Below are positions 236-21,541 of a stretch of DNA of 44,892 bases, one piece after another. Below the pieces are notes generated by a model. It had not been told where the DNA came from, searched no databases, and saw only the letters and a program-made list of their open reading frames with translations. The stretch comes from Planctomycetota bacterium (GTDB taxonomy: Bacteria > Planctomycetota > Planctomycetia > Gemmatales > Gemmataceae). Location of the stretch: positions 1 through 44,892 of the forward strand of contig VGYC01000039.1 in assembly GCA_016873095.1 (NCBI GenBank). Direction: 5' to 3'. A program made the position numbers and the translations under genes. The first letter of the stretch is position 1; each line of letters opens with the position of its first letter.

Positions 236-1354
236 TTGCACCGCCTCATCATCTGTTGCTTGCCGCTGCTCCTTGCCGGCTGCCTGCCCCGCGTGGTCTG
301 GCTGCCTGACTCGAGCGGCCTGGTGTACACCGCCGGCCCGGGCGGAAACTTGCTGCACGTGCACGATCTGTCGCGCGGCAAACCGCTGGTCAAGGACCTG
401 CCCGGACGCGTCAACGTCCCCGCGGTCAGTCCGGACGGCAAGCTGCTGGCTGTTGCCCTGCTGGCCGGCAACAGCCCCAACAGCCGGGTCCGCATCCTGG
501 TCTTCGATCGCGCCGGACGGGAGACGCATCGTTCCGACGAGATCCCCTGGCACGGCGAGACCAAGCTTTATTCCGCCAGGCCGCTCGGCGCCGAGACCTA
601 CTGGGAGCCGGCCGGCACGCGGCTGCTGATCGCCGGCGACGATCGTCTCGGTTTCTATGACCTCAAGAGCCGGCAATTTCGCGCGCAGCCGGGCAACTTC
701 GGCCCCGGCCCGCTGATTTTCGGCGGCGAATGGCGCGGGCCAAGGAGCAAGGATATGCTGGTCCGCTGCGACGGGCAGTTCGCCTTGCTGGACTGGAACG
801 GCGCCGTCCAGTCGCTGCGCGGCCTGAATGTCGAGGCTAGCAATCAGGTGCGCGACGCCATGACCACCTGGCCCGCCATCTTCTCTTCGCGCTGGGATGA
901 CGACATCGCCGAGGTCGGCTGGAACAGCGACCGTTTCCGCTTCGACCTTGCCAGGCGGACGGTTGCGTTCTCCCAGGTGCTGCCGGACTTCGCCGACGGC
1001 CGCAAGGTGGTCCAGCAACGTTTCTCGTTCGGCGCCGGAAAACCCAGTGTGCGCGTCGTCGAGTTGGTTGCCCGCAATTTTGGTCTGGGTGGCGACGGCC
1101 AGGAAGGAACATTCGGCATGTTCCGCGTCGAGGTTCTGAAACCAGGCCAGGACCAGCCGAGCGTGCTGGTGCCGAAGATCTCCGGCTGCGTGCAACTGGT
1201 GCCGTCGCCGGATCGCCGGCTTCTCGCCGTCGATTGCCTGGCCGACTCCGCCGACCGCGCGCCGCAGGAGCGGACCATTCTGGTCGTCGATGCCGCCGGC
1301 CGGCTCATCTCGCATATCGGCACGATTTTCCCGAAAGTGGGTCAGGCGGAATAG
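236..1354 (+). CDS. Beta-propeller-like lipoprotein, hypothetical
   Basis: A 372-residue secreted protein of unknown function. It opens with a hydrophobic stretch ending in the lipobox LLAGC (Cys at residue 16), so it is probably a lipid-anchored lipoprotein. The body has WD40/PD40-like strands, for example VWLPDSSGLVYTA and VSPDGKLLAVAL near the N-terminus and PSPDRRLLAVDC near the C-terminus, which suggests a beta-propeller. The open frame continues upstream to a TTG at 65, but the added 57 residues have no signal character and would bury the lipobox. TTG at 236 gives a textbook lipoprotein signal, although no strong ribosome site precedes it. It lies upstream of and in the same direction as the zinc-ribbon block, separated by 175 bases, so co-transcription is possible but unproven. 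Confidence 0.7.
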   Translation: MHRLIICCLPLLLAGCLPRVVWLPDSSGLVYTAGPGGNLLHVHDLSRGKPLVKDLPGRVNVPAVSPDGKLLAVALLAGNSPNSRVRILVFDRAGRETHRSDEIPWHGETKLYSARPLGAETYWEPAGTRLLIAGDDRLGFYDLKSRQFRAQPGNFGPGPLIFGGEWRGPRSKDMLVRCDGQFALLDWNGAVQSLRGLNVEASNQVRDAMTTWPAIFSSRWDDDIAEVGWNSDRFRFDLARRTVAFSQVLPDFADGRKVVQQRFSFGAGKPSVRVVELVARNFGLGGDGQEGTFGMFRVEVLKPGQDQPSVLVPKISGCVQLVPSPDRRLLAVDCLADSADRAPQERTILVVDAAGRLISHIGTIFPKVGQAE

Positions 1355-1529
1355 TTTGTTACATTGGCCTGACGTTTGGCAATTACACTGGTACAGCACG
1401 GCAAAGTGGTGGCAGGCCGCAAGCTCGTCTCCGTTCAATATTCTGCTTGAAATGGCCTGGTCTCGGTCAATAATGAAGACTTGGCACTAGTTCGCGGGTC
1501 AAAAGGGCGCCGTTCGTTAAGGAGTGCCG

Positions 1530-4283
1530 ATGGCCATCCAGTGCATTGCTTGTTCCAAGGTGAATCCAGCAGACGCCGTCTATTGCTACTACGACGGCCG
1601 GGCACTTGCGGGCAGCGGCAACGAAGGCCCCATGCGCGTCGGCGCCATGCCGTTTCCCATGCCCTTTTGCTTTTCCGACGGCGAGAATTGCAAGAACTTC
1701 AATCAACTGGCGCTGGCCTGTGACGCGCGCTGGGACGAGTCGCGCAGGCTTCTCGCCGATGGAATCTGGCAGACGTTTTTCACGGCCATGGGTCGGCTCG
1801 ATCTGGCGACCGCGGCCCAGCAAGCCGCCAGGCAGCCCGACCTTGACGTGGGCCTGAGTCAGTTGCTCGAGGTTTTTCCCACTGATCCGGATGTGCTGCG
1901 TCCGCCCAAGCTGGCGTTGTCGGCCACGCAGCAGGACCTGGGGACGCTGGCGCCAGGAACCGATCGATCCTTCCCGTTGCAAATCGCCAACCAGGGCTTG
2001 CTGGTCCTCCGCGGCATGGTGTCGTCCGATTGCGCATGGCTGTCGATCGGGCAGCCGGCCGGGCAGCCGGCCATGCGCGTCTTTCAAACCCGCGCCAACC
2101 ACACGCTCACGGTGAAGGTGCTCGGGCACAAGCTGCGCGCCGGCCGCAAGCCGCTCGAAGGCACCATCGTCGTCGACACCAACGGCGGCAACACCACCGT
2201 CGTCGTCCGCGCACAGGTGCCGGTCCGTCCCTTCCCCGGCAACAACGTGCTGGCCGGGGCCAGGTCGCCGCACGAACTGGCGGTCAAGGCCAAGGCCCAT
2301 CCAGCCGAGGCGGCCGGCCTCTTTGAACAGGGCGCTGTCCGGGCCTGGTACGCCAGCAACGGCTGGACCTATCCCATCCAGGGCACCGAAGGCACCGGCA
2401 AGGGCGCGGTCCAGCAATTCTTCGAGGCCCTCGGCTTGACGAAAGCCCCGCGGCTCGAGATCAGCACGCAGCAGATTGTCTGCAAGGGCAAGCCCGGCCA
2501 GCGACTGACCAAGCACATCACCATCAGCACTCAAGAGCATCGCCCGGTCTACGCCAACGCCTGGGCCAGCCAGGACTGGATCAAGCCGGGTGTGGCCAAA
2601 CCGCAAGGCAACAAGATCACGATTCCGTTGCACATCGAAGTGCCGCAGCGCCCGGGAGAACACCTGCAAGGCGCCGTCACCTTCCAGGGCAACGGCAATC
2701 AGCAGTTCGTCGTGCCGGTGACCATGGCCGTGGCGGCCGCCGCCGAGCGCGAGGAAGAAGCCGCCGAGACCACCAGCGGCGGCCTGCGCATCGGCTGGCT
2801 GGTGGCCGCCATCGCCGCCATGATCGTGATCACCGCCGGCGTCGTCGGCTTCATCATCAGGAGCCATGACGAGCACGGCGATCCACCCATCGTCCCAAAC
2901 CCTCAGCATGTGCAGCAAAAGCCGCCGACTCAGCCGCCCGGCGAGCGGCCGTCCGGCGAGAGTGGAGCCTGGTGGCACAAGATGCAGGGAGCCGGCTTGA
3001 CGGCGTCGCTGGCAGCGCTCGGGGAAGTCATTCCTCAGGAGAAGGGCATCGTCGATGGCATCGGCAACTCGTCCGACATCGAGCGCTACAAGGCTTACGA
3101 TGCGCTGCGTGACAAGCTGCCCGGACTGTTGCGCCAGCTCAAGGCCCGCGAACCGCTGGCCCGCGTCATTGCGGACTGCTGTGTCTTCGAACCCGCCGAG
3201 CGCAACGTCTCGCCCCTGGCCCAGGCCTTGACGAGCCAGATCCCCCTCGATCGGCAGGAATTTCGTCCCGAGGAAAACGGTGACGAGTTGAAGCGCGCCG
3301 TCTGGTCGCTGCGGACCTTGTTCACTGCCATCCAGAACAAGGCTATTAGCGACGATCGCGCCCGCCTGCTGGCCAATCAACTCGGCTCGGCAATGGTGTT
3401 CGGCATCTCCCTCAACACTGCGGCCCCTCTGGAAGAACTCAAGAAGGAGTCCGAGCAGCTGCTCGCGAGCCGTTGCTACCGGGGCATGGTATCGACCGCC
3501 TCGAAGTCGCTGGAGCACGCCCTGTTCATGCGCGGTGAACTGCTCAGAGAGTTCGCCGGACAGCTGCCACCGGCCGTGCGCAGCAAGATCGACGTCGAAC
3601 TGGTCGCCATCGGCCTGGCCAAGAACGGCGCCGCCTTCCCGAAGCTCGAGCCGATCCTCAGAGAAAGCCTGGAGAGCGTCGATATCGCCGCGGCGTTCAA
3701 GATCCTCGATGTCTACCAGCGGGCCGGCAAGGACCTGGCGCCGCAGCTTGAAAGTGTCCTGTCCACAAAATGGAAGGTGCTCGCCAATCCCAAGCTGCTC
3801 ACTCACGCCGACAAGGTGGCCGCGCTCCGCAGGGCGCTGGTCCCGCCCAAGATTCCTCCCGAACAGCGCCTTGCTTACGTGCAGAAGATGACCACAAGCG
3901 CCCTCAAGCTCACGAAGTCGAAGAAAGACATCGATTATTTGCAGGACACCTTGAAGCTGGCGCATGCCTCCACCATGGCCGCCGCACTCCTGAACAAGGA
4001 TGCGGGTGCGGAGCGGTTCGAGGATCTCGTCGAGGTGGTCCCCAAGCTGGAGCCCCCCGCTGAACCGGAAAAACTGCGGAAAAACCCAAGGACAAGCCCG
4101 ACCTGCCCGACAAGATCGACAAGATCAAGCGCACCAAGAAGAGCGCGGCTATCGGCCTTCAGCCGAAAATCTACAACGATACGCTGCGCGCCAGTGCCCC
4201 TCTCGACCCGCAGCGTGGCAGGCCGTGCAACACCTACCGCATCACCTTCCAGGCCGGTCAGATCTACACGATCGATCTCATGA
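1530..4283 (+). CDS. Zinc-ribbon/Ig-like membrane protein, N-terminal part (frameshifted)
   Basis: This frame carries the first ~850 residues of what should be a 1301-residue protein. The ATG at 1530 follows AAGGAG at 1518-1523. Residues 1-25 form a degenerate zinc ribbon (CIAC then CYYDG). About residues 130-230 and 310-400 are two Ig/BACON-like beta domains, separated by a linker containing AWYASNGWTYP. A single transmembrane helix spans about residues 419-444. The following ~400 residues are mainly helical, with no recognised domain. Near 4068-4086 the coding signal jumps to the -1 frame: the frame-0 tail after PPAEPEKL is Ser/Arg/Thr-rich shadow peptide running to the stop at 4283, while the other frame gives a clean PPC-domain protein from 4082. 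Two A5 tracts (4069-4073, 4080-4084) sit at the junction. A lost A, a real mutation or programmed slippage could explain it. The function is unknown. Confidence 0.75.
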   Translation: MAIQCIACSKVNPADAVYCYYDGRALAGSGNEGPMRVGAMPFPMPFCFSDGENCKNFNQLALACDARWDESRRLLADGIWQTFFTAMGRLDLATAAQQAARQPDLDVGLSQLLEVFPTDPDVLRPPKLALSATQQDLGTLAPGTDRSFPLQIANQGLLVLRGMVSSDCAWLSIGQPAGQPAMRVFQTRANHTLTVKVLGHKLRAGRKPLEGTIVVDTNGGNTTVVVRAQVPVRPFPGNNVLAGARSPHELAVKAKAHPAEAAGLFEQGAVRAWYASNGWTYPIQGTEGTGKGAVQQFFEALGLTKAPRLEISTQQIVCKGKPGQRLTKHITISTQEHRPVYANAWASQDWIKPGVAKPQGNKITIPLHIEVPQRPGEHLQGAVTFQGNGNQQFVVPVTMAVAAAAEREEEAAETTSGGLRIGWLVAAIAAMIVITAGVVGFIIRSHDEHGDPPIVPNPQHVQQKPPTQPPGERPSGESGAWWHKMQGAGLTASLAALGEVIPQEKGIVDGIGNSSDIERYKAYDALRDKLPGLLRQLKAREPLARVIADCCVFEPAERNVSPLAQALTSQIPLDRQEFRPEENGDELKRAVWSLRTLFTAIQNKAISDDRARLLANQLGSAMVFGISLNTAAPLEELKKESEQLLASRCYRGMVSTASKSLEHALFMRGELLREFAGQLPPAVRSKIDVELVAIGLAKNGAAFPKLEPILRESLESVDIAAAFKILDVYQRAGKDLAPQLESVLSTKWKVLANPKLLTHADKVAALRRALVPPKIPPEQRLAYVQKMTTSALKLTKSKKDIDYLQDTLKLAHASTMAAALLNKDAGAERFEDLVEVVPKLEPPAEPEKLRKNPRTSPTCPTRSTRSSAPRRARLSAFSRKSTTIRCAPVPLSTRSVAGRATPTASPSRPVRSTRSIS

Positions 4284-5434
4284 GCCGGTCGTTCGACACC
4301 TTTCTGCGCCTTGAAGATCCTTCCGGCATCACCATTGCCACGGACGATGACGGCGGCGGCAATCGCAACTCCCGGATCATCTTCAGCGCCCCCTCGACCG
4401 GAGAATATAGCGTGATCGCCACGACCTACAATGGCCGCCTGGGCCCGTACACGCTCGTGATTCGCCGCGGTACTGGCGGATCGCGCGGCCTGCGCCCCGG
4501 CGGATTTTCGCTACCAATCGGGCCTGGGGGATTGGGACAGATGCCCATGGGGCAGGAACCCAAGGAGAAGGACAAGTCGGCCGACGGGCAATTTGACGTG
4601 AACGACCTGGCCATCCTGGAGAGCAAGAAGAGCCAGCGTAGCGCTCGCGTGGCCGCCCTCGAGAACATCGCCAGCAGCGTCAGCAGCGCCGGCAATGAAC
4701 TGGCGCCGCGGCATGCCCGGCGGCTGGCCCGCTATCTCCTCACCGTGCAGGACAAGGAACTCGAGGAGATCGCCCCCAAGCTCGAGTCGTTCACCAAGTG
4801 CCGGCATCTGATCCTGGCACTGGCCGACCAGGTCGAAAAGACCGAGGGACCGCAGTTAACTGCCGAATCCGTCGTTGGCGCCGTGACGGGTCAGACCCTG
4901 CAGTTCAACCGCGACGAGGACTGGCGGTCGGCGTGCCGGCGCTTGCTTGTCCAGCTGGCCCTAGACCTGGGAGCGCAGCGTGCCACCAGTGTCGGCGAAC
5001 AGGCGGCCGAGATGCTGCGCGATCTCTACAAGGAACAGGGCTACGCCTTCGGCATGGAGGAGGGCGAGCTGGCGTCCTTGACCCGCCCGGCACAGGCGCT
5101 GGCCGCGGTCATCAAGCACGTCGCCGTCTCGGCAAGCAAGGACGGCGCCGCCCCGGAACACCGGGACTACCTGGAGCGCGTCGGCCGCCATGTCCAGGCC
5201 GCCCAGTTCGTCGCCGACAACGACCTCGAGCGCCTGATCATCCTGCAGCGCGTCTGGCTCAGGGTGCTGAGCATTTACCTGCACAAGTCACACCCGGAAA
5301 TTGCCGCCAGCGCCGCCGAGATCCAGCAACAGCTGGTCACCCGGGACCGCCGCGCCAGCAACGTGCTCGACCAGCTCCGTGCCGGCGAGGAAACGACGCT
5401 GCGCATCTGGTCGCTGGCGCACAACCCGAAATGA
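4280..5434 (+). CDS. PPC-domain C-terminal part of the frameshifted membrane protein
   Basis: The ATG at 4280 is probably not a true start. The same frame reads sensibly back to 4082 (KPKDKPDLPDKIDKIKR and onward), directly abutting the frame lost by the upstream gene. Once joined, residues about 870-970 form a PPC (bacterial pre-peptidase C-terminal) beta domain. Its diagnostic stretches are TYRITFQAGQIYTIDL, FDTFLRLEDPSG and GEYSVIATTYNG, where the initial half lies upstream of 4280. The remainder to 5434 is helical and unrecognised. Because the transmembrane helix is in the upstream part, the PPC domain should face outside the cytoplasm. The stop is 16 bases before the next gene, suggesting an operon. 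If translated alone, the PPC domain would lack its first strands, which argues for one protein. Confidence 0.72.
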   Translation: MSRSFDTFLRLEDPSGITIATDDDGGGNRNSRIIFSAPSTGEYSVIATTYNGRLGPYTLVIRRGTGGSRGLRPGGFSLPIGPGGLGQMPMGQEPKEKDKSADGQFDVNDLAILESKKSQRSARVAALENIASSVSSAGNELAPRHARRLARYLLTVQDKELEEIAPKLESFTKCRHLILALADQVEKTEGPQLTAESVVGAVTGQTLQFNRDEDWRSACRRLLVQLALDLGAQRATSVGEQAAEMLRDLYKEQGYAFGMEEGELASLTRPAQALAAVIKHVAVSASKDGAAPEHRDYLERVGRHVQAAQFVADNDLERLIILQRVWLRVLSIYLHKSHPEIAASAAEIQQQLVTRDRRASNVLDQLRAGEETTLRIWSLAHNPK

Positions 5435-5450
5435 TGATTGCGAGGACTCC

Positions 5451-6530
5451 ATGCAACGCCGCTCGCTTCTCCTCGTCGTGTTCGCACTCGGCTTCCTGAC
5501 GCCGCCCGCTGCGCGCGCCATCCTCATCGAGGCTGGCGGCATGCAGGTGGGTGGCTACGTCATCAGTAACAACGGCATGACGCTCAAGATTCGCGTCATC
5601 GGGCCGGACGGCGAGAAGAACCTCGAGTTTGAGCGAGCCAAGATCAAGATCATCCACCAGCTCGATCGCACCAAGCTCGAAAAACTCAGCAAGGACCAGC
5701 CGCAAGGCTACGCCGACCTCGCCGAAGCGTTTGCCGCGCACAAGCAAGATCCCGAAGCACGTGACGTGGCCATGCGCTTGTTCCTGATCGCGGCCTATCT
5801 CGACCAGAAGCAGTTCGCAGCCAGGTCGCTCATGCGCATGAGCCTTCTGGCGGCTTCGCCGGAGGAAGCCCGCCGCTGCAAGGCCATGGCGTTCCTGCTC
5901 GACCCCACCATGGACGCGACGGCGCTGCGCGTGGCAGCCGTCAAGCCGCCCGCCAAGGCGCAGTCCGGACCGTTGCAGGATTTTCTCAAGACGCTGCAGC
6001 ATTTTCGCGCCGGCCAGGTGGACCGCCTGAAGCAAGCCAAGGAAATGTCCGAGCGGCTGAACAAGCTCTTTGCCGCGGCGCCAGGCATCGGTTCGCAGGC
6101 CAGCTTCCAGCGCCTGTGCAACGATGCCTTCTGCAGCACCTGTGGCCGCCGGGGGGTGATAAAATGTTCCCTCTGCAAGGGCACCGGCGTGAGTGTCAGT
6201 GATTTCGGCCAGCAGCAGCTGTGCACCAAGTGCAAGGGCAAGCGCCTGCCAGGCTTCAAGTTCACCGTGACGACATGCGACGTCTGTGACGGCCAGGGCG
6301 TCAATCAGGCCATCATCGACGAGAACTTGCGGAACGTGCTGCGCGCCGAGCTTTGGGCGCTCGACCAGCTTGCCGGCGGCGCTAACGCCGGCAAGCGCGG
6401 CGAGGCCAGCTGGTCGTCCGTCATCGATACCCGACAGGTGAGCCCCGCCGGCACCCTGAGCCTGGAAACCATCACCGAGTTCGACCCGCGCAAGTGCGTC
6501 TATCGCGGCGGCGTCTGGGTCGCGCCCTGA
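5451..6530 (+). CDS. Secreted protein with DnaJ-type cysteine-rich zinc-finger domain
   Basis: A 359-residue protein that begins with a signal peptide (MQRRSLLLVVFALG, cleavage probably after ARA near residue 23). The first mature region, with IEAGGMQVGGYVISN, resembles a small beta domain. Residues about 80-220 are helical with a TPR-like feel (YADLAEAFAAHKQDPEA). Residues about 228-284 hold four CxxC pairs, three of the CxxCxG kind (CSLCKGTG, CTKCKGKR, CDVCDGQG), matching the zinc-binding centre of DnaJ. There is no J domain and no HPD motif, so it is not DnaJ. A DnaJ-type finger in an exported protein suggests holding of unfolded protein or thiol chemistry outside the cytoplasm, which is inference. 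It starts 16 bases after the PPC gene and is probably co-transcribed with it. Confidence 0.75.
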   Translation: MQRRSLLLVVFALGFLTPPAARAILIEAGGMQVGGYVISNNGMTLKIRVIGPDGEKNLEFERAKIKIIHQLDRTKLEKLSKDQPQGYADLAEAFAAHKQDPEARDVAMRLFLIAAYLDQKQFAARSLMRMSLLAASPEEARRCKAMAFLLDPTMDATALRVAAVKPPAKAQSGPLQDFLKTLQHFRAGQVDRLKQAKEMSERLNKLFAAAPGIGSQASFQRLCNDAFCSTCGRRGVIKCSLCKGTGVSVSDFGQQQLCTKCKGKRLPGFKFTVTTCDVCDGQGVNQAIIDENLRNVLRAELWALDQLAGGANAGKRGEASWSSVIDTRQVSPAGTLSLETITEFDPRKCVYRGGVWVAP

Positions 6531-6600
6531 TGGGCTCGTCGCTCGGCAGCGGCTCGAAGCAAAATCAGACCACAAACATTCCAGATAAGGAGTGACAACG

Positions 6601-7902
6601 ATGTTCGCCAAGGTCATGTGTCCGGGTTGCAAGTACCAGTTCAGCATCCCCGAGGGGGACATGGGCAAGCGCCAGGTCTGCCCGAACTGCCGATCGCCGT
6701 TCCTCGCCGGCAAGTCGGAGACCGAAGGAACGCAAGCCCCCGCCCCGGCTTTTTCTGCGCCGGCCTATTCCGCGCCGGCGTCGGCCGCGCCGCCTGCTTT
6801 CGCGAAAACCATGCTCGGCGAGACGGGACCGGCGATAAAGTACAATTGCCCGCGCTGCAAGACAGCGCTGGAGTCGCCGGTGAGCGAGGCGGGCATCAAG
6901 AAACCGTGCCCGTCGTGCGGGCAGCGCCTGCAGGTGCCCAATCCGCCGCCGGCCCCGGCACCGTCGGCGGCAGCGCCGCGACTGGACAAGACCATGCTGG
7001 CCAGCGATGAGCGGGCCGCGCCGCCGTTGCCCCCCATCAGGTACAACTGCCCCAACTGCAAACGGCCGCTCGAGGCCGCCGCGGTCGAGGCCAACACCAA
7101 GAAAAACTGCCCGTCATGCGGGCAGCGCCATCAGATCCCCGCCGCGCCTGCCGCGGCCGGCGGACCCAACCTGAACAAGACCATGCTCGCAGGCGACGGC
7201 AGCAGCCAGCCCGTCGGCGCCGCCGCCTATGCCTCCTACGGCACACCCGGCAGCGCTGCCGCCCCGGGCGCCCCGGGCGCCCCGGGCGCCGCGCCGACCA
7301 CGCCGCCGCCGATGATCGCTGGCGTGCCCGTGACCGGCAAGAACATCGCCATCGCCGTCGGCGCCCTCTTGCTGCTCCTCTACGTCGTGCCAGCGCTCAT
7401 CCGCGGCGGCCGAGCGGACAACACCGCCGAGATCGCCAAGATCGAAGAAAAGAGGAGGAAAGACGAGGAGGAATTCGAACGAGCGAAGAAGGAAGTGGAA
7501 AAGCACCAGGCCTACGTGGCTGAACAGAAGGAGTTCTTCGCCAAGGTGCGCCGTACCCTTGATGACCTGGCCAAGGACGCCCGGGACCAGGAATCGCGGA
7601 TGCGCCGCAACTATGAAGACGCCATCGCTAGTGCCGACGACACCCAGAAGGCGGTTCTCAAGAAGAAATTCGACGCCGAGCAACGCCGCATCGACGAGGA
7701 AAAACGAGCCAAGGAGCGGGAACATCAGAAGACGCTTGAGGAAATCCAGACCAAACTCGCCCAAAAAGAGCGCGAATTGCAGACGGCTCGGGAGCAGGAG
7801 CAGAATAGAAGGGCTATTGTCACACAGCCGGTCGTCGTCCCACAGCCGGTCTACTATCCGCCCTACGATCCTTACTACTGGCGTCCCTGGTGGCTGCGCT
7901 AG
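6601..7902 (+). CDS. Triple zinc-ribbon, KTML-repeat, coiled-coil membrane protein
   Basis: A 433-residue protein; the ATG at 6601 follows AAGGAG at 6587-6592. Three MJ0042-like zinc ribbons, each with two CxxC pairs, begin near residues 7, 83 and 150. Each is followed by an Ala/Pro-rich linker and a copy of KTML (Thr70, Thr131, Thr194), giving a repeat of about 62 residues. A 9-base tandem repeat encodes APG units before a transmembrane helix at about residues 248-267. Residues about 275-400 are a highly charged coiled coil, and the tail is rich in Tyr, Pro and Trp. By topology the ribbons are probably cytoplasmic and the coiled coil outside. The regularly spaced KTML threonines could be phosphorylation or FHA-docking sites, but no kinase is present here. 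The function is unknown. It is the third zinc-ribbon gene in a row, 70 bases after its neighbour. Confidence 0.75.
   Translation: MFAKVMCPGCKYQFSIPEGDMGKRQVCPNCRSPFLAGKSETEGTQAPAPAFSAPAYSAPASAAPPAFAKTMLGETGPAIKYNCPRCKTALESPVSEAGIKKPCPSCGQRLQVPNPPPAPAPSAAAPRLDKTMLASDERAAPPLPPIRYNCPNCKRPLEAAAVEANTKKNCPSCGQRHQIPAAPAAAGGPNLNKTMLAGDGSSQPVGAAAYASYGTPGSAAAPGAPGAPGAAPTTPPPMIAGVPVTGKNIAIAVGALLLLLYVVPALIRGGRADNTAEIAKIEEKRRKDEEEFERAKKEVEKHQAYVAEQKEFFAKVRRTLDDLAKDARDQESRMRRNYEDAIASADDTQKAVLKKKFDAEQRRIDEEKRAKEREHQKTLEEIQTKLAQKERELQTAREQEQNRRAIVTQPVVVPQPVYYPPYDPYYWRPWWLR
7261..7287 (+). repeat. 9-bp tandem repeat (x3) encoding APG units
   Basis: Three perfect copies of GCCCCGGGC encode an Ala-Pro-Gly linker just before the transmembrane helix. 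A GC-rich in-frame repeat of this kind can change in copy number without breaking the frame. Confidence 0.85.
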
Positions 7903-7932
7903 TGACTTGTCCCGGTTCGATTGATGGGAAAA

Positions 7933-7981
7933 CGAGGCTCCTGCCGAGCCGTCAACGGGCGGCGGCTCGGCAGGAGCCTCG
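7933..7981. terminator. 18-bp perfect inverted repeat, bidirectional terminator candidate and dispersed repeat
   Basis: Arms at 7933-7950 and 7964-7981 are perfectly complementary with a 13-base loop. The arm core is GAGGCTCCTGCCGAGCC. The hairpin lies between the stop of the zinc-ribbon gene (7902) and the convergent DUF493 gene (stop at 8076), where a terminator for both would be expected. There is no T-run, so if it terminates it is not a classical intrinsic terminator. The arm sequence recurs inside the PKS gene near 19657, so this is a member of a dispersed repeat family. Confidence 0.6.
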
Positions 7982-8075
7982 CCCTCCCCAATACCCATCG
8001 AGCGATGCGTGACGTTGCACGACTGGACTTCGCTCGAAGATGGCAGGCTGGCCGGCTCCAGCAAGCAAGTTGACT

Positions 8076-8360
8076 CTACCACATCATGACGAGTCCCGTC
8101 AGCGACCTGAGCCGCCCGTAGATGTCCAGCACTTGCTGGGCGGTTTGCACCATCGGCTCGACGGTGACGGCCACGTGGCGGCCACCTACCGCCTCGCGCA
8201 CCGAGTAGGGCGGGTCAGCGTTGGTATCGAGTTGCGCCCGGACCGCCGCCACGGTGCGCGCCACGAAGCCGCGCTCCGCCTTGCCGATCACCTTGAACAT
8301 GTAAGGCCCCGGGAAGGCATGCGTGCTTTCCAGCAGATCGATCGGCGGTAACTCGTACAT
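8076..8360 (-). CDS. DUF493/YbeD-like small protein
   Basis: A 94-residue protein that resembles the DUF493 family (E. coli YbeD), small ferredoxin-fold proteins of about 90 residues thought to be regulatory. The family pattern is visible in FPGPYMFKVIGKAE near residues 16-29, a central VAVTVEP strand, and a C-terminal LDIYGRLRSLTGLVMMW in place of the usual LYEELGKIDIVRMVL. The ATG at 8360 is preceded on the minus strand by GGAGAT at suitable spacing. It converges with the zinc-ribbon gene and is divergent from the GGDEF-like gene, with 270 bases between in which I recognise no further gene. The biochemical role of the family is not established. Confidence 0.75.
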   Translation of the reverse strand: MYELPPIDLLESTHAFPGPYMFKVIGKAERGFVARTVAAVRAQLDTNADPPYSVREAVGGRHVAVTVEPMVQTAQQVLDIYGRLRSLTGLVMMW

Positions 8361-8630
8361 ACCATCTCCAGCCTACCGGCGCGTTCGCTCCGGCACAACA
8401 GAAGTTGCCGGCGATGCTGGCGATCCAGTGCTACCGACTTTCCGGGCCGTGCCGGTTATCGCGCCTGGGCAAGCACGGCAAGCAGGAAAAACCACGCAGC
8501 TGCGCGGTTGCGTCTCGTACCGGCAGTCTCCGGAAGTTTTAATGGGTAGGCGATCCGCACACTGCGCGTGCGGCCAGCGGCACACCCTATGTGCCGGCCA
8601 CGAACATGGACTCGCCCTCGAGGACTGCCC

Positions 8631-9560
8631 ATGCCGGCCCCCTTCGGCCGCCGCCGAGCCTTGCTTGCCGGATATCGCGCTGCCGCCGAACCGGCGGATG
8701 CTCTGCCGGCACTGTTTCGGCAGTCCCCGCTTTGCGAGTGCTGGGAACTCGTCGCCGCCGATGACACGGCCCACGCTCGCGTCCTCCTGCACCACAACGC
8801 CTTTGACGCCGTCTTGCTGGATCAACCCGTCGATGACTGGACGGCCGGCCTGCAGGACTGCGCGACCGTCGTGCAGTTGACACAGTTCCGCCCCGAAGCA
8901 CTCACGCGCGCCTGCCAAGACGGTGTCACCATCTGTCTGCCCCGCGACATGACGCTGGCCCACCCGCCCCTTCTCGAGGCCGCGCTGGAACAGGCTGCCC
9001 GTCTCGCCGACGAGCGCCGCCTTCATGCGCTCACGATCGATCAACTCGAGCAGTCCCGTCGCCGCATCGACCGCCTCGTGAGCCTGATCTGGCGCTCTTC
9101 GCCGGCCGAACCGAACACCGGCTGGCTGGCGGAACGTTACATCCTGGAAAGGCTCGATGAGGAACTGGCACGCGCACAACGGCACGCCGCGCCGTTCACC
9201 CTGGCCATCGGCGAGGTGCTCGAAGAGGATGGCCACCAGGAACTGCCCGACATGCACGAGTGGACGGCGACAACGGTGCATCGGGCCAAGAGGCGCTGCG
9301 ACGTGGCCGGACAGTACGGGCCGAACCGCTTCCTCCTGCTCATGGTGCACACGCCCCAGGACGGCGCGCTGACGTGTTGCCGGCGCCTGCAGCGCCTCCT
9401 GCAAGCCTGCCCGCCCTTCGGCGGTCCACGCGAGGCAGTCCGCGCCTACTTCGGTCTGGCTGCATCGGCGCACGGCTCGACGCCGTCGCTTCTCCGTGCG
9501 GCCGAGGAGAACCTGCAGACCGCGCGAAATGTCGATGACGGCATCGCCGTCGCCTCCTGA
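8631..9560 (+). CDS. Degenerate GGDEF-domain protein
   Basis: A 309-residue protein. The N-terminal ~110 residues have a receiver-like flavour (FDAVLLDQPVDDW) without a clear phospho-acceptor set. After a helical linker (about 125-165), residues about 170-305 follow the GGDEF fold: ERYILERLDEELARAQRH, then QYGPNRFLLLM at residue 228 where an active enzyme has RYGGDEF, and a final AEENLQTARN helix. The GGDEF signature and its metal/GTP residues are absent, so diguanylate cyclase activity is unlikely. It may be a nucleotide sensor or a structural relic. The ATG at 8631 is chosen over an upstream in-frame start at 8568 because the extra 21 residues are Arg/Pro-rich and look non-coding. Strong conservation of fold with loss of catalysis is seen in known regulatory homologues of this superfamily. 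Confidence 0.7.
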   Translation: MPAPFGRRRALLAGYRAAAEPADALPALFRQSPLCECWELVAADDTAHARVLLHHNAFDAVLLDQPVDDWTAGLQDCATVVQLTQFRPEALTRACQDGVTICLPRDMTLAHPPLLEAALEQAARLADERRLHALTIDQLEQSRRRIDRLVSLIWRSSPAEPNTGWLAERYILERLDEELARAQRHAAPFTLAIGEVLEEDGHQELPDMHEWTATTVHRAKRRCDVAGQYGPNRFLLLMVHTPQDGALTCCRRLQRLLQACPPFGGPREAVRAYFGLAASAHGSTPSLLRAAEENLQTARNVDDGIAVAS

Positions 9561-14322: not shown

Positions 14323-14647
14323 GGCTTCAGCTTCATCGCGACTCATCTTAGGGCGCGCCGCCGCACCGTCTGACAGAGCTTGCCAATTTCGGTAATTTGG
14401 AGAAAATAGGAAGAATTGGCATCATGATAACGATCCGTGCGTATGGAATCTCACGAGCTTGCGACATGGCCATCATTTGCCGCCTGGGAGCTTTGGCAAA
14501 TCTGCATGGCGCGATGGTTTTATCCCACAGCCGCGGGCAAGCCTGATATAATTTTCTCGCTTGAGTCGGTTCCACGCGGCACGGCCGCCGGAACGCTCCG
14601 CATCATTCGCATCCTTGACTTCCAACACCCTGGCGCCCCCTTCTTCT
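14323..14647. other. 325-base gap upstream of the polyketide synthase
   Basis: I see no convincing gene. Short frames here (for example a 75-residue frame at 14437) overlap the PKS start and have no coding character. The stretch is noticeably more AT-rich than its surroundings around 14385-14440 and 14515-14560, as expected for regulatory DNA, and contains the extended -10 listed separately. Confidence 0.6.
14544..14552 (+). promoter_or_regulatory. Extended -10 promoter element for the PKS gene
   Basis: TGATATAAT is a perfect TGnTATAAT extended -10 about 95 bases before the PKS ATG. No good -35 lies 16-18 bases upstream, which extended -10 promoters can do without. Perfect consensus is unusual in such GC-rich DNA. 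Confidence 0.5.
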
Positions 14648-17600
14648 ATGCGAATCCTGTTTGAAACCCTCGTCGAGATGCTCCGCGCCCGGGCGGGAGA
14701 CTCCGTCAACGGCTATTTCCACATGCCGGACGGCCCGGGGCCCGAGGACTTCCTGTCGTTCGCCGACCTGGATCTTCGTGCCCGCGCGCTGGCCTGTCAC
14801 TTTCGCGACCACGGCTTGACCGGACAGCGAGCCCTGCTTTGCTATCCCCCTGGCGTCGAGTTCATGGTGGGCTTTTTCGGCTGCGTCTACGGCGGTGTGA
14901 TCGCCGTGCCCGCCTATCCGCCGCGTGCCCACCGCAGCGATCCGCGTCTGTACAGCATTGCCGAGAACTGCACGCCGGCCATCGCGCTCACCAGTCGCGA
15001 GGTTCATCGCGACCTGGCACGCTATGTCGCCAGGTCGCCGCGACTCGCCGCCTTGAACTGGCTGGACACCACGACGGTTGCCGCCGAATTGGCCGACGGC
15101 TGGCGCGATCCAGGACCGGCGCCGGGTGACCTGGTCGCCTTGCAATACACGTCCGGCTCGACCGGCAACCCCAAAGGCGTGATGCTGAACCACGGTTGCC
15201 TGCTGCACAATCTGGCGCGCATGCGCGAGGTGCTCGGTCTGGCCGAAGCCAGGCATGCTGTTTGCTGGCTGCCGACATTCCACGATATGGGTCTGGTGGG
15301 CAACTACTTGCAAGGCATCCACTGCGGCGTGACGCTCACATGCATGTCGCCGGCCGGCTTCGCCCACGATCCAATCCGCTGGTTGCGGACCATCAGCCAG
15401 AAACGCGCCTTCGTCAGCGGCGGGCCATGCTTCGCCTTCCAGCACTGTGTCAACCGCATGACACCAAAAAAGTGCGAGGGGATCGATCTGAGCTGCTGGA
15501 AGGTCGCCTATGTCGGCGCCGAGCCGGTTTCCGCCACCGTGCTCGAGCGCTTCGTGCGGACATTCGAGCCCTATGGCTACCGCCGCGAGACCTTCTTTCC
15601 CTGCTACGGACTGGCCGAGAGCACGCTGATGGTGACCGGCGGCGACTACCGCGCGGCTCCGATTGTCCGCGGCTTCCGCCAGGACGCCCTCGAGGAGAAC
15701 CGCGCCGAACTCGAAGCGGCCGGCAGGCAGCTGGTCGGCTGCGGACGCGCGCTCGACGACCTGGACGTGTGCATCGTCGATCCCGACACGCGCTTGCCGG
15801 TGAGCGAAGGCCGCATCGGCGAGATCTGGGCGGCCGGACCGAGCGTGGCGAGCGGATACTGGAACCGCGCCGAGGAATCCGCCGAGCTGTTCCGAGCCCG
15901 CCGCGCCGATGGCAGCGCCGCCGGATACCTTCGCACCGGCGACTTTGGCTTCCTGCAGCAGGGCGAACTGTTCGTCAGCGGCCGGCTCAAGGATCTCATC
16001 ATCATCCGTGGCCGAAACTTCCATCCACAGGACCTGGAAAGCGCCGTCGAGGAGGCGATCCCGGAACTGCGCGGCCTGGGAGCCGCTGCCTTTGCAGTCG
16101 ACGCCGATCCGGTCGCCCGGCTGGTCATTGTTCAGGAGGCGCCGCGCGCCTTCAAGGCGGGACAGGGCAACGACCTGTTTCTCAAGGCTCGCCAGGCGGT
16201 CGCCGAGCAATTCGAGCTGGAGCTGAGCACACTGGCGCTCATCAAGTTGGCCAGCATCCCACGTGCATCCAGCGGCAAGGTGCGCCGCAGCGAGACGCAG
16301 CGACGATACCTGGCCGGCGCCCTTGACATCATCGAGAAGATCGACGCTCCCGAACCGGAGGAGCCGGTTTCCCAGCAAGGCCCGACCCTCGTCGGCGCCG
16401 GCTTGGAGGCAGCCATCCGCGACTGGCTGGTGGCCAGACTGTCGAAACGCCTGGGTGTGCCTGCCGAGCAGATTGACCGCGACAAGCCGTTTGCCGCGTA
16501 TTTGCTCGATTCCATCATGATGGTGTCGATGGCGGCGGACCTCGAGCAATGGATCGGCCGGCCGTTGTCGCCAACCTTGCTCTACACCGCTCCGACAATC
16601 GCTTCGCTGGCGCGCAAGCTCGCCGGCGAGACACGCGTCGAGGACAATGGCGAGTTCCAGGGACCCGCTCCGGTGCCGGTTGCCGTCGTCGGCATCGGTT
16701 GCCGCTTTCCCGGCGCCGACCATCCCGACGAGTTCTGGCAGCTGCTTGCCGAGGGCAAGGACGGCGTCGCCGATCTGCCGGCGGGACGCTGGACCCGTAT
16801 CCCGAAGGACCTGGCTACTACCCGCGCCGGCTACCTTGGCAGCGTCGACCGCTTCGACGCGCAATTCTTCGGCATCGCCCCGCGCGAGGCCGTCTTCATC
16901 GATCCACAGCATCGCCTTCTGCTCGAAGTTGCCTGGGAGGCGCTCGAACACGCCGGCCTGGCGCCGGATCGGCTCGCCGGCAAGTCCGTCGGTGCCTTCG
17001 TCGGCATCTCCAACAGCGACTACGGCCGGATACTCACTCAGCACACCGGCTACGCCGACGCTTACCTGGGCACGGGCAACTCGCCGAGCATGGCCGCTCA
17101 TCGCTTGTCGTATCACCTCGATCTGCACGGTCCGAGCATCGCGGTGGATACGGCCTGCTCATCGTCTCTCGTCTCGGTGCACATGGCCTGTCAGAGCATC
17201 CGCAACGGCGAATGCGATCTCGCCCTGGCCGGCGGAGTCAACTTGCTGCTCGCCCCGGAACTGACCGAGGCGCTGTCGCGCGCCGGCATGCTGTCGCCGA
17301 CGGCACGCTGCAAGACCTTCGATGCCGGAGCCGACGGCTATGTGCGCGGCGAAGGTTGCGGGCTCATCGTCCTCAAGCCGTTGTCGGCTGCAATCCGTGA
17401 CGGCGACCAGGTCTTCGCCGTGCTGGAGGCGTCGCTGGTCAACCAGGACGGCCGCAGCAACGGCATCACCGCTCCCAACGGCGGCGTGCAGACCGAACTG
17501 ATCCGTCGCACCTTGCGGCTGGCCCATCGCCGGCCCGACGAAGTTTCCTACATCGAGGCACACGGAACCGGCACGCCGCTCGGCGATCCCATCGAGTTTG

Positions 17601-20600
17601 ACGGCTTGAATGACGCCATCGGCGCCGCCGACCAGCCCTGCACTCTTGCCTCCGTGAAGACGAATCTGGGCCATCTGGAAGCGGCCGCCGGCATTGCCGG
17701 ACTCATCAAGACCATCTTGCAGATTCACCACGCGCACATCGTGCCGCACCTGCATCTCGATGAGCTCAACGCGCGGATCAAGCTTGACGGCAGTCGTTTC
17801 CGCATTCCACGCGACTTGCAGCCCTGGGAAGGCAGCCGGCTGGCCGGCGTCAGCTCCTTTGGCTTCGGCGGCACCAACGCGCATGTGCTGGCCTCGCAGG
17901 CCCCGGCGATGGTTCCGGCCGTGTCGCCGGCCGATGACCGGCCCGTTCATGTCCTCACGCTATCGGCACGATCAGAACCGGCGCTGCGCGAGTCGGCCCT
18001 TCGTTACCTGGATTGGTTCGCACGCCATCCCGATGCGGCGCCGGCGGACGTCTGCGCCACGGCGGCCCGCGGACGCAGCCATTTCACGCAGCGCCTCGCC
18101 GTACGCGGCAGCTCGCTGTCCGAGCTGAGCGACGGCCTGCAACGCTGGCTCGACGGCAAGCGCGATCCCGCCTGGCAAATCGGCACTGCCCGGCCGGACC
18201 TGTCGCGAAACATTGCTTTCCTGTTCACCGGCCAGGGGTCCCAGTACGCCGGCATGGGCAAGCAGCTCTATGAAAGCTGCGCGGCGTTTCGTGAAGAGCT
18301 TGACCGCTGCGACGCCATCCCCCGCGGCCACGGCTTCTTCTCGATCCGCGAAGCTCTGCACAGCGCGGAACGGCTCGACGATACAGATATCGCTCAGCCG
18401 GCACTGTTCGCGCTCGAATACTCGCTGGCGCAGCTGTGGCGGCGCTGGGGCATCGAGCCGGCAGCCGCGCTGGGCCACAGCGTCGGCGAGTATGTTGCCG
18501 CCTGCGTCGCCGGCGTCTTTTCCCTCGAAGACGGACTGCGGCTGATTGCCGAGCGCGGCCAGCTCATGCAGGCATGTCCCGAGGGAACCATGCTCGTCTG
18601 CTTCGCGCCGCTGGCGGAAATCCAGGAACGGCTCGAGCGCTGGCAGGACTTCCTCAGCATCGCAGCGATCAACGGCCCCGAGAGCATCGTGCTGGCGGGC
18701 GACGCCGGTGTCATGGCCGCTTTCCAGGAAGAGCTGGCGGCGTTCAGCATCGAAACCAGGCCATTGCACGTGCGCCGGGCGTTTCACTCGCGGCTGATCG
18801 AGCCGGCGTTGCCGAAGTTGCGCGACATCGCCTCCGGCATCACGCTTCAACCACCGGGGATTCGCCTCATCTCGAACAGGACCGGCGACTTCTTCCAGGC
18901 TGCGCCGGACGCCGGTTACTGGGCCGAACATGCCCGCATGCCGGTGCAGTTTGCCAGGGGCATCCAGACGCTGCATGAGGCCGGCATCACACATTTCCTG
19001 GAGATCGGTCCCGAGGCCGTGCTCAGCCGGCTGGGCCCGACTTGCCTGGCCGGCCAGGACGCGACCTGGCTGCCGTCACTGCGCCGCGGCAAGGACGATT
19101 GGCAGGAGTTGCTTGCCAGTCTCGGCAAGCTCTACGTGGACGGGGCCGCGATCGATTGGGATCGCTTCGACAGCGTGCGCCGGCGCCGCCTGGTGCTGCC
19201 TACCTATCCGTTCCAGCGGCAACGCTACTGGTATGATGACCTGCCGCGCGGCGTCGTCTCCGCCGACGAGATGGTCGCCGCCGCACCGAAGGACGGCTCG
19301 ACAGAGATCACCTGGCAGCCACGTTCCAACTGGAGCGAAGGATTGCCGCGACTGGCCACCGGCTTCGACAAGCTTCCGGGTGGACTCGAAGCTGTCGCGG
19401 CGCCCATTGTCGCCAAGGTGAAGAACGCGCACGACATCGGCATGTTCGGCGATTTGCGCGTGGAATTCGATCGCCTCGCCGGCGGCTACGTCGCCAACAC
19501 GCTCAAGCAACTTGGCTGGCGGCCCGGCGCGGACGAGCGCGTCGAGCTGGAGCCACTCGCCGAGCGCTGCAAGGTCCAGCCCGCATATCGCCGGCTGCTG
19601 GGTCGGCTGCTGGAGATCGCCGCCGAGGACGGCTGGCTTACCGCCGCGTTGCACAGGGAGGGCGAGGCTCCCGCCGAGCCGCACAGCTGGCATGTCGTGC
19701 GGCCGCCGGCCGCGGTGGACATCCAGGCGTGGCACGAGGATCTGACGAGCCGCCGCGCCGATTTCGCGGTCGAGCTCAAGCTGGCCCATCGCTGCGCCAC
19801 GCTGATGCACGCCGTGATGCGCGGCGAGCAGGACCCGCTCCAGGTCTTGTTCGGCGAAGGGGCGGGACAGCTCACCGAGCAGCTGTATGAGAAATCGCCG
19901 CTGTCGCGCTTCTTCAACGAGTTGCTGGCGGAATGCGTCGCCAGCGTGCTGGTGCCGCTGGCCAGGCAGCGGCCGATACGCATCCTCGAAGTCGGCGCCG
20001 GCACGGGCGGGACCACGACCTACTTGCTGCCGCGCCTGCCGGCGGAGCGCACCGAGTACGTTTTCACGGACCTGTCGCAACTTTTCCTGGCGCGCGCCCG
20101 GGACAAGTTCCGCGCCTATCCGTTCGTCGAATATCGATTGTTCGACGCCGAGAAGGACCCGGCCGGCCAGGGCTTCGCCGACGGTCAGTTCGACATGGTC
20201 ATGGGCGCCAATGTTCTCCACGCCACGGGCGACCTGCGTCTCAGCCTGCGGAACATCCGCCGGCTGCTGGCTCCCGCCGGTTTGCTGGTAATGCTCGAGG
20301 GCACCGGCCGGCGTCGTCTGCTCGACATGATCTTCGGCCTCACCGACGGGTGGTGGAAGTTCCAGGACGCCGATCTGCGCCAGGGCTGCCCGCTGCTGTC
20401 CCCCGCGAGCTGGACCAGGCTGCTCGTCCAGGAGAAGTTCCCCGAGGTTGCCATCGTCCCGGCGCCTGACGATGTCATGCCGGACCCGGATCAGGCGGTA
20501 GTACTGGCACGTGCCGGCGAACCGGTGCGGCAGGATTCCGAATCGGCCCGATCCCGCGCGTGGGCGGTCAACGGCGTCGCCACCAAGAACGCCAGCACGA

Positions 20601-21541
20601 CTCCCCAGACCTGGCTGGCCATCGCCGACCATTCCGAACTCGCCGACCACGTGGCAAAGCGGCTTGCGGCGGAAGGTGCGAGCGTCGTCCACGTTCATCA
20701 CGGTGAAATGCTTGCCTGGGAGGGACAGGAACGCTGCTGGATTCGTCCCGGCGAGCAAGAGGACATCGACGCGCTGCTGGCTGAAGTCCGGAAGCGCAGC
20801 CAGCAGGCCATCCACGTCATCGATTTCAGCGAAGCAGGCACGCGGACCTGGCCCGGCGTCGAACGCCACTGGCTGGTGACGCGCGGCGCGGCGCCGCTCG
20901 GCGAGGCGCAGGCGAACTTGACCTGGCAAGCATGGCTCGACGACAAGCTGGATGCGACGATGCGCCTGGTGGACGTCGATCCAGACGCGACCGTGGACGC
21001 GCAAGCCGATTCCTTGCTGGGAACGCTGCTGCATCCCGACGATGAGCCGGCGCTGGCGTACCGGGGCGATCAGCGCTACGTGCCGCGGCGGCCGACTCCG
21101 ACCGGGCCGGCGGCAGCCGGCGACCGGGTCGCAGCCATCGATCGACAGGCACTGCTGGCGGCGTCGCCTTTCGATCGTCGGGCCATGGTCGAGGGTTATC
21201 TGCGCCGCGAGTTCGCCAACGTCCTCGGTCTCGAACTGGCCGCCGAGGATCTCGACAAGCCGTTGCAGGCCTTCGGGCTGGATTCGCTCATGGGCATTCA
21301 GTTCCGCAATCGGGTCGAGGCCGGTCTGGGCGTGTCGTTGTCCATCGTCGATTTCTTGAAGGGACTGAGCCTGGGTCAAATCGTCGAAAACTCGCTCAAG
21401 GAACTGGCGGCCTCCGCCGAGGCACAGGCGGCCAGGCCCAGGAAGGAGCTTGTCGTCCCCGGCAATTTCACACCCGACAAGGTCACCAACCTCTCGGAAG
21501 GCGAACTCGACAACCTGTTGCAATCGCTCATGGATTCCTAA
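14648..21541 (+). CDS. FAAL-ACP-KS-AT-cMT-psiKR-ACP polyketide synthase
   Basis: A 2297-residue type I PKS. Residues 1-~570 are a fatty acyl-AMP ligase (YTSGSTGNPKG near 167), which activates a fatty acid and loads it on the first ACP (Ser622 in LLDSIMM). The ketosynthase runs about 678-1085, with Cys837 in DTACSSSL and the His motifs EAHGTGT and TNLGHLEAA. The acyltransferase is about 1190-1500, with Ser1278 in GHSVGEY and RAFHS, which favours malonyl-CoA. A C-methyltransferase (EVGAGTGG near 1780) follows. Then comes a shortened ketoreductase structural half (WLVTRGA; LRG-like RYVPRR near 2145) with no catalytic KR half. The last ACP has Ser2213 in GLDSLMG. There is no DH, ER or thioesterase. 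The final residues NLSEGELDNLLQSLM look like a short docking helix. The ATG at 14648 fits FAAL N-termini; a TTG at 14561 is the alternative. The expected product is a chain-extended, alpha-methylated beta-keto fatty acyl unit on ACP (inference). Confidence 0.9.
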   Translation: MRILFETLVEMLRARAGDSVNGYFHMPDGPGPEDFLSFADLDLRARALACHFRDHGLTGQRALLCYPPGVEFMVGFFGCVYGGVIAVPAYPPRAHRSDPRLYSIAENCTPAIALTSREVHRDLARYVARSPRLAALNWLDTTTVAAELADGWRDPGPAPGDLVALQYTSGSTGNPKGVMLNHGCLLHNLARMREVLGLAEARHAVCWLPTFHDMGLVGNYLQGIHCGVTLTCMSPAGFAHDPIRWLRTISQKRAFVSGGPCFAFQHCVNRMTPKKCEGIDLSCWKVAYVGAEPVSATVLERFVRTFEPYGYRRETFFPCYGLAESTLMVTGGDYRAAPIVRGFRQDALEENRAELEAAGRQLVGCGRALDDLDVCIVDPDTRLPVSEGRIGEIWAAGPSVASGYWNRAEESAELFRARRADGSAAGYLRTGDFGFLQQGELFVSGRLKDLIIIRGRNFHPQDLESAVEEAIPELRGLGAAAFAVDADPVARLVIVQEAPRAFKAGQGNDLFLKARQAVAEQFELELSTLALIKLASIPRASSGKVRRSETQRRYLAGALDIIEKIDAPEPEEPVSQQGPTLVGAGLEAAIRDWLVARLSKRLGVPAEQIDRDKPFAAYLLDSIMMVSMAADLEQWIGRPLSPTLLYTAPTIASLARKLAGETRVEDNGEFQGPAPVPVAVVGIGCRFPGADHPDEFWQLLAEGKDGVADLPAGRWTRIPKDLATTRAGYLGSVDRFDAQFFGIAPREAVFIDPQHRLLLEVAWEALEHAGLAPDRLAGKSVGAFVGISNSDYGRILTQHTGYADAYLGTGNSPSMAAHRLSYHLDLHGPSIAVDTACSSSLVSVHMACQSIRNGECDLALAGGVNLLLAPELTEALSRAGMLSPTARCKTFDAGADGYVRGEGCGLIVLKPLSAAIRDGDQVFAVLEASLVNQDGRSNGITAPNGGVQTELIRRTLRLAHRRPDEVSYIEAHGTGTPLGDPIEFDGLNDAIGAADQPCTLASVKTNLGHLEAAAGIAGLIKTILQIHHAHIVPHLHLDELNARIKLDGSRFRIPRDLQPWEGSRLAGVSSFGFGGTNAHVLASQAPAMVPAVSPADDRPVHVLTLSARSEPALRESALRYLDWFARHPDAAPADVCATAARGRSHFTQRLAVRGSSLSELSDGLQRWLDGKRDPAWQIGTARPDLSRNIAFLFTGQGSQYAGMGKQLYESCAAFREELDRCDAIPRGHGFFSIREALHSAERLDDTDIAQPALFALEYSLAQLWRRWGIEPAAALGHSVGEYVAACVAGVFSLEDGLRLIAERGQLMQACPEGTMLVCFAPLAEIQERLERWQDFLSIAAINGPESIVLAGDAGVMAAFQEELAAFSIETRPLHVRRAFHSRLIEPALPKLRDIASGITLQPPGIRLISNRTGDFFQAAPDAGYWAEHARMPVQFARGIQTLHEAGITHFLEIGPEAVLSRLGPTCLAGQDATWLPSLRRGKDDWQELLASLGKLYVDGAAIDWDRFDSVRRRRLVLPTYPFQRQRYWYDDLPRGVVSADEMVAAAPKDGSTEITWQPRSNWSEGLPRLATGFDKLPGGLEAVAAPIVAKVKNAHDIGMFGDLRVEFDRLAGGYVANTLKQLGWRPGADERVELEPLAERCKVQPAYRRLLGRLLEIAAEDGWLTAALHREGEAPAEPHSWHVVRPPAAVDIQAWHEDLTSRRADFAVELKLAHRCATLMHAVMRGEQDPLQVLFGEGAGQLTEQLYEKSPLSRFFNELLAECVASVLVPLARQRPIRILEVGAGTGGTTTYLLPRLPAERTEYVFTDLSQLFLARARDKFRAYPFVEYRLFDAEKDPAGQGFADGQFDMVMGANVLHATGDLRLSLRNIRRLLAPAGLLVMLEGTGRRRLLDMIFGLTDGWWKFQDADLRQGCPLLSPASWTRLLVQEKFPEVAIVPAPDDVMPDPDQAVVLARAGEPVRQDSESARSRAWAVNGVATKNASTTPQTWLAIADHSELADHVAKRLAAEGASVVHVHHGEMLAWEGQERCWIRPGEQEDIDALLAEVRKRSQQAIHVIDFSEAGTRTWPGVERHWLVTRGAAPLGEAQANLTWQAWLDDKLDATMRLVDVDPDATVDAQADSLLGTLLHPDDEPALAYRGDQRYVPRRPTPTGPAAAGDRVAAIDRQALLAASPFDRRAMVEGYLRREFANVLGLELAAEDLDKPLQAFGLDSLMGIQFRNRVEAGLGVSLSIVDFLKGLSLGQIVENSLKELAASAEAQAARPRKELVVPGNFTPDKVTNLSEGELDNLLQSLMDS
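19657..19681 (+). repeat. Dispersed EGEAPAEP repeat inside the PKS reading frame
   Basis: The stretch reading GGGCGAGGCTCCCGCCGAGC and its flanks is one substitution away from the arm of the palindrome at 7964-7990 read on the minus strand. In the PKS frame it encodes REGEAPAEP (about residues 1670-1678) in the linker before the methyltransferase motif. Confidence 0.75.

Follow-up and report, generated by a model that had tools for sequence, protein, structure and literature searches.

Three consecutive genes in a member of the Gemmataceae, here called A, B, and C, raise the question of whether they encode a single unit reaching across the inner membrane or are neighbors of no joint function. 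The window analyzed here is a stretch of 44,892 nucleotides, the entire contig C39 of an 8.36 Mb draft genome (G000). An earlier note on this DNA had described the genes as three zinc-binding proteins that, with a preceding lipoprotein, might form an undescribed envelope-spanning assembly. All three genes are encoded by the + strand; A and B are 16 bases apart and B and C 70 bases apart, in agreement with that note (Table 1).

Table 1. Positions in the window of genes A, B, and C and of features within or next to them
Feature	Position	Strand	Description or basis
Sigma-70-like promoter match	1447-1474	+	Sole match in 1300-8100; just upstream of A, after the lipoprotein gene; weak
Gene A	1530-5434	+	Predicted cytoplasmic module, one transmembrane (TM) segment, and periplasmic region; frame broken within 4062-4098
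A zinc-ribbon-like CxxC-x10-C-x2-D	1542-1598	+	Fourth ligand position is an invariant Asp, not Cys
A-N, two repeats of helical bundle plus HYDIN/PapD (ASH)-type Ig domain	1698-2735	+	Predicted model, fold matches; widespread Gemmataceae module
A single TM segment	2802-2870	+	Hydropathy, sequence
A frame change, -1	4062-4098	+	Beside two runs of five A; relatives continuous
A PPC domain (window-type A)	4229-4414	+	Pfam E 6.7e-7
A core, C-terminal domain common to A-like proteins across Planctomycetota	4646-5416	+	blastp, HMM
Gene B	5451-6530	+	Predicted exported partner of A; signal peptide, small SH3/Sm-like barrel, TPR-like helices, C-terminal domain
B DnaJ-like four-CxxC finger, optional insert	6129-6308	+	Pfam, NCBIfam, relatives compared
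Gene C	6601-7902	+	One KTML motif in each of three ribbons, a single TM segment, coiled coil, aromatic C-terminal tail
C TM segment	7345-7404	+	Sequence

Gene content of the block

The description of gene A in the earlier note holds in part. A has one hydrophobic segment (residues 425-443) and a PPC domain scoring 30.5 bits against a Pfam cut-off of 25.9, while the same domain in the relative from genome G034 reaches 23.5 bits, below the cut-off. However, A is not one open frame in the window, and its ribbon consists of three Cys and an Asp. The first frame runs on wrongly to position 4283, and from about 4062-4098 onward the correct reading is in the -1 frame. In two relatives the gene is unbroken, encoding 1324 residues in G034 (locus L009) and 1292 residues in G076 (UBA4732; locus L010). 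The break may be an assembly error or a local mutation. It may also be a programmed frameshift, but the relatives lack any frame change.

B was likewise described correctly in some respects. An N-terminal signal-type helix and four CxxC motifs are present, and Pfam and NCBIfam detect no J domain. The DnaJ-type match, however, is below the cut-off (14.3 bits against 32.7; E 0.049 in Pfam, 2e-4 in NCBIfam), and the finger is optional. Among 12 B proteins compared, only those of the window and G034 carry it; it is missing from the other 10, including those of G076, G077, and G080 and the B proteins of f4, a second family within the class, which are shorter. The finger is therefore an insert and not a defining feature of B, and the idea that a different zinc module in each gene is a common principle of the group has to be given up. 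We also considered B as a periplasmic Hsp40-like zinc chaperone in a folding operon. The four CxxC motifs do resemble the DnaJ central domain, but the missing J domain and the dispensability of the finger in the B family led us to discard this reading, to which we give next to no credence. The predicted model of B has low confidence (pLDDT 61), offering barrel- and TPR-like hints only. A Foldseek search with it gave no match at E <= 0.001, and a PDB sequence search with the B profile returned nothing significant.

The sequence features given for C in the earlier note are present. Six CxxC motifs make up its three ribbons; it also has three KTML motifs and a single hydrophobic segment, and its tail is coiled-coil-like. 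In relatives, both the ribbons and the KT[ML]L-type motifs number two or three.

A scan of positions 1300-8100 gave one promoter-like site against 0.7 expected by chance, which is weak evidence. No promoter-like and no + strand terminator-like site was detected between A, B, and C in these weak scans, in keeping with the grouping that the note proposed. The beta-propeller lipoprotein gene, which the note had counted with the group, precedes the sole promoter-like site. It is not next to the block in L009 or L010, and its one good relative among the genomes bearing the triple, in G076, is on a different contig. We therefore rejected it as a fourth member.

The gene order is conserved amid unlike flanks

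A, B, and C are found on one strand and in the same order in G000, G034, and G076, which represent three Gemmataceae genera, with identities of 36-51%. These are all of the genomes in which the three genes share a contig (3/3). The pattern that the earlier note said would refute the grouping, homologs mostly apart and out of order, was not seen. When the genes around the three blocks were compared, only A, B, and C were common to all, and no immediate flank was shared. One extra match, members of a dehydrogenase-like family, lies 20 kb off in the window. An order kept amid unlike flanks is not expected from chance or simple recency, so the earlier claim of a grouping beyond chance stands. That the three genes are chance neighbors without joint function is consistent with the small number of genomes that carry all three. 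Given the same order in three genera, the unrelated flanks, and the modular fusions described below, we regard it as very improbable.

B is rare, with full-length matches in 5 of 95 family genomes, and since most of the compared genomes are drafts, gene absences may be gaps. Wherever a full-length B was found (12/12 loci), it directly follows A or an A-like gene. Several observations count against a single unit, among them the broken frame of A in this assembly and the lack of an FHA, vWA, or kinase gene next to the block. In the relatives, B and C are separated by 244 and 389 bases, so C could be transcribed from a separate promoter in those genomes. In a fourth genome (G042), A is truncated by the contig end and C is on another contig. 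G034 also has a second, shorter C-type gene without an A-type neighbor (L127, 9312-10052).

Two other genes of the window are recorded here. Downstream of C is a GGDEF-domain gene (8568-9560); none was seen beside C in L009 or L010. The first half of a large gene at 14561-21541 contains domains of the AMP-ligase, carrier, and ketosynthase types; its open frame, 2326 residues long, looks like a modular polyketide synthase.

The N-terminal module of A is widespread in Gemmataceae

The A profile matched 54 of the 95 family genomes, most of them through the N-terminal module (A-N, residues 1-405) and some only through the PPC domain. A-N comprises the ribbon and two HYDIN/PapD-like Ig domains. Its predicted model (pLDDT 85.8) has the ribbon followed by two repeats of a helical bundle and an Ig domain, and the modeled Ig domains match HYDIN/CEP192-type folds (Foldseek, VIA). 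The HYDIN PapD-like domain aligns to an A Ig domain with a Z of 11.2 and an rmsd of 1.7 over 94 residues. A PDB sequence search with the A-N profile gave nothing significant. The resemblance of these predicted domains to the ASH-type Ig domains of HYDIN and CEP192 is one of fold only, and no ciliary function is implied.

A-N modules often share an operon with a von Willebrand factor A (vWA) protein and two FHA proteins, one carrying a zinc ribbon and the other a membrane protein; one such operon is on contig C47 of the window genome. This context suggests that A-N is a Gemmataceae module related to FHA/vWA signaling modules, with a probable link to phosphorylation. No FHA, vWA, or kinase gene adjoins the A-B-C block, and no vWA or FHA gene is next to it in the window, L009, or L010. 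The recurring operon, for which we found no name, encodes one or more ribbon-Ig proteins along with a vWA protein and a zinc-ribbon FHA protein, often joined by an FHA membrane protein. It is found at L053 (on C47, 7043-14402) and also at L054, L058, L059, L062, L067, and L070. The vWA protein of L053 (9410-10690) ends in KKTMLA and KKTQLA, resembling the KTML motifs of C.

A-N also pairs with C in the absence of the rest of A. In three genomes (G001, G065, and G033), A-N stands alone as a protein of about 450-490 residues; its gene is directly followed by C, and B is absent. In a maximum-likelihood tree, the A-N modules of all loci with C, together with the truncated A of G042, form one clade (100/100), and those of the A-B-C members group inside it (93/95). 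These results bear on a reading in which the three genes share a transcript, only A and B cooperate, and C is an independent scaffold riding along. Two of the eight clear C loci are away from A, and B-C gaps reach 389 bases. In the other six, though, C directly follows an A-type gene, and the A-N modules paired with C are a single clade. We consider an independent C unlikely.

The A core and B form a pair found beside motor genes

The C-terminal core of A, about 240 residues long, is homologous to A-like proteins whose N-terminal regions differ. Core homologs are present in G077, G080, and the f4 family (blastp E 1e-14 to 1e-22) and in distant families (HMM E 5e-10 to 3e-11). C is absent from G077, G080, and seven f4 genomes, in all of which B comes directly after the A-like gene. 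Where the contig extends far enough upstream, the pair is preceded by genes for a vWA protein, a small exported protein, ExbB, two ExbD proteins, and a TPR protein that is likewise exported. Profiles for the TPR protein, the A core, and B recovered matches in more distant families of the phylum. In roughly 17 genomes, the TPR match precedes the B match by about 2-4 kb, a spacing of one A-sized gene, and in families f9, f91, and f98 the A core and B come directly after the TPR gene.

In the single-contig genome G469, the A core (residues 902-1115) and B (residues 1188-1413) are parts of one 1418-residue protein. Fusion into one polypeptide strongly suggests that the A core and B act together. 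The fused gene (L136, 6173-10429) directly follows the TPR gene. The A-like and B proteins scanned against Pfam gave no match at E 0.05, and no PPC domain was found in the A-like proteins scanned. A J domain suspected by eye in a distant A of G473 had no Pfam match and was rejected.

Judged by these sequence relationships, A is a fusion of two older units, A-N with C and the A core with B, joined through the TM helix.

The motor genes seen beside the pair elsewhere have a different distribution in the genomes with the full block. No match to the TPR gene was found in G000, G034, or G076, and a second search of G000 likewise gave none. The ExbD matches of G000 are on contigs C233, C129, C13, and C102, with none on C39, and an ExbB-ExbD-ExbD set is present on C129. 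The unit may therefore have left the motor or use one in trans. The second possibility is a reading in which A and B are still coupled to an ExbB-ExbD motor encoded elsewhere in the genome, much as their relatives appear to be to one within the same operon, and the A-N and C part is only regulatory. It is favored by the set on C129 and by G077 and the f4 genomes examined, where ExbB-ExbD-ExbD-TPR genes precede the A core and B. Against it are the lack of a TPR match in all three genomes with the block, the placement of every ExbD gene of the window genome off the A-B-C contig, and the sequence of the A TM segment. This segment contains no His, and thus neither the SHLS motif nor the conserved His reported for TonB/TolA-type transducers (PMC12204202). 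We judge a motor still coupled to A and B to be rather doubtful.

Comparison with known systems

Among the nearest described systems is the TPR-tolQ-tolR-tolR-vWA cluster of the PVC group, put forward as a force transducer driven by protons (Mol Biol Evol 2025, PMC12204202). In G077, in the f4 family, and, along with the TPR gene, in families f9, f91, and f98, the two genes that come right after the TPR gene of such clusters are homologs of the A core and B. These genes are outside the cluster definition published in the portion of the paper considered here, which makes no mention of A- or B-type genes. Unlike the PVC clusters, the window unit is on a contig that carries neither motor genes nor a TPR or vWA gene. 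In the window, A has also acquired a PPC domain and another kind of cytoplasmic module, and C has been added.

The Gemmataceae vWA, zinc-ribbon-FHA, and FHA-TM operons resemble the block in encoding at least one protein with the roughly 405-residue ribbon-Ig module of A. They differ in that A-B-C has no adjacent FHA or vWA gene and that the operon paralogs lack the periplasmic A core. The likeness to Tol-Pal and TonB-ExbBD is one of overall plan, a protein of the inner membrane whose periplasmic part is long, but no TolQ, TolR, TolA, or Pal gene is next to A-B-C. The TolB-like match of the lipoprotein is weak (E 0.01), and the lipoprotein gene is unlinked to the block in G076. The CxxC finger of B is like the central domain of DnaJ (Hsp40); as noted above, B differs in lacking a J domain and in having a dispensable finger.

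Full-text searches of open-access papers found none describing the A, B, and C set, and eLife papers on vWA systems, considered as a possible description of it, did not match. In agreement with the earlier note, no named system with this set was found in the open-access papers and domain libraries searched.

A model for A, B, and C

Our working model is that A, B, and C form one functional unit spanning the inner membrane, a reading to which we give even chances. The envelope-spanning complex proposed in the earlier note now has a basis in A, a fusion of two halves that are conserved independently of each other and have one partner each; the function of such a complex we can only infer. The A-N ribbon-Ig module would lie in the cytoplasm, in a putative orientation assigned by convention. 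One TM helix would tie it to a periplasmic helical region, the PPC domain, and the conserved core, and the core is predicted to bind exported B in the periplasm. C would be a second membrane protein, its ribbons and KTML repeats facing the cytoplasm in a putative orientation, again by convention, and working with A-N. The threonines of the KTML motifs are candidate phosphorylation sites for FHA-dependent signaling. The coiled coil of C may extend into the periplasm. The unit would most likely pass a cytoplasmic, probably phosphorylation-dependent state outward to the A-B complex in the envelope, or anchor the complex to it. What the comparison shows directly is the order of the genes, their domains, the history of fusion, and the linkage of B to A cores; the physical complex, its topology, the direction of signaling, and the part played by phosphorylation are putative.

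A more specific form of this model is a trans-envelope signaling device, in which an FHA/vWA-linked module has been fused to a motor-associated A-B core, and signals, perhaps phosphorylation-dependent, control a machine freed from its proton motor. We offer this version tentatively, as possible and not as probable.

Gene A thus connects a described motor cluster, itself of putative role, with a Gemmataceae signaling module, and the A core and B are two protein families without a Pfam model. The joining of A-N and C to the A core and B, together with the fusion in G469, predicts a cytoplasmic partnership of A-N with C and a periplasmic partnership of the A core with B. These contacts, one pair inside and one outside, would be testable by binding and topology experiments in a group whose envelope is poorly understood.
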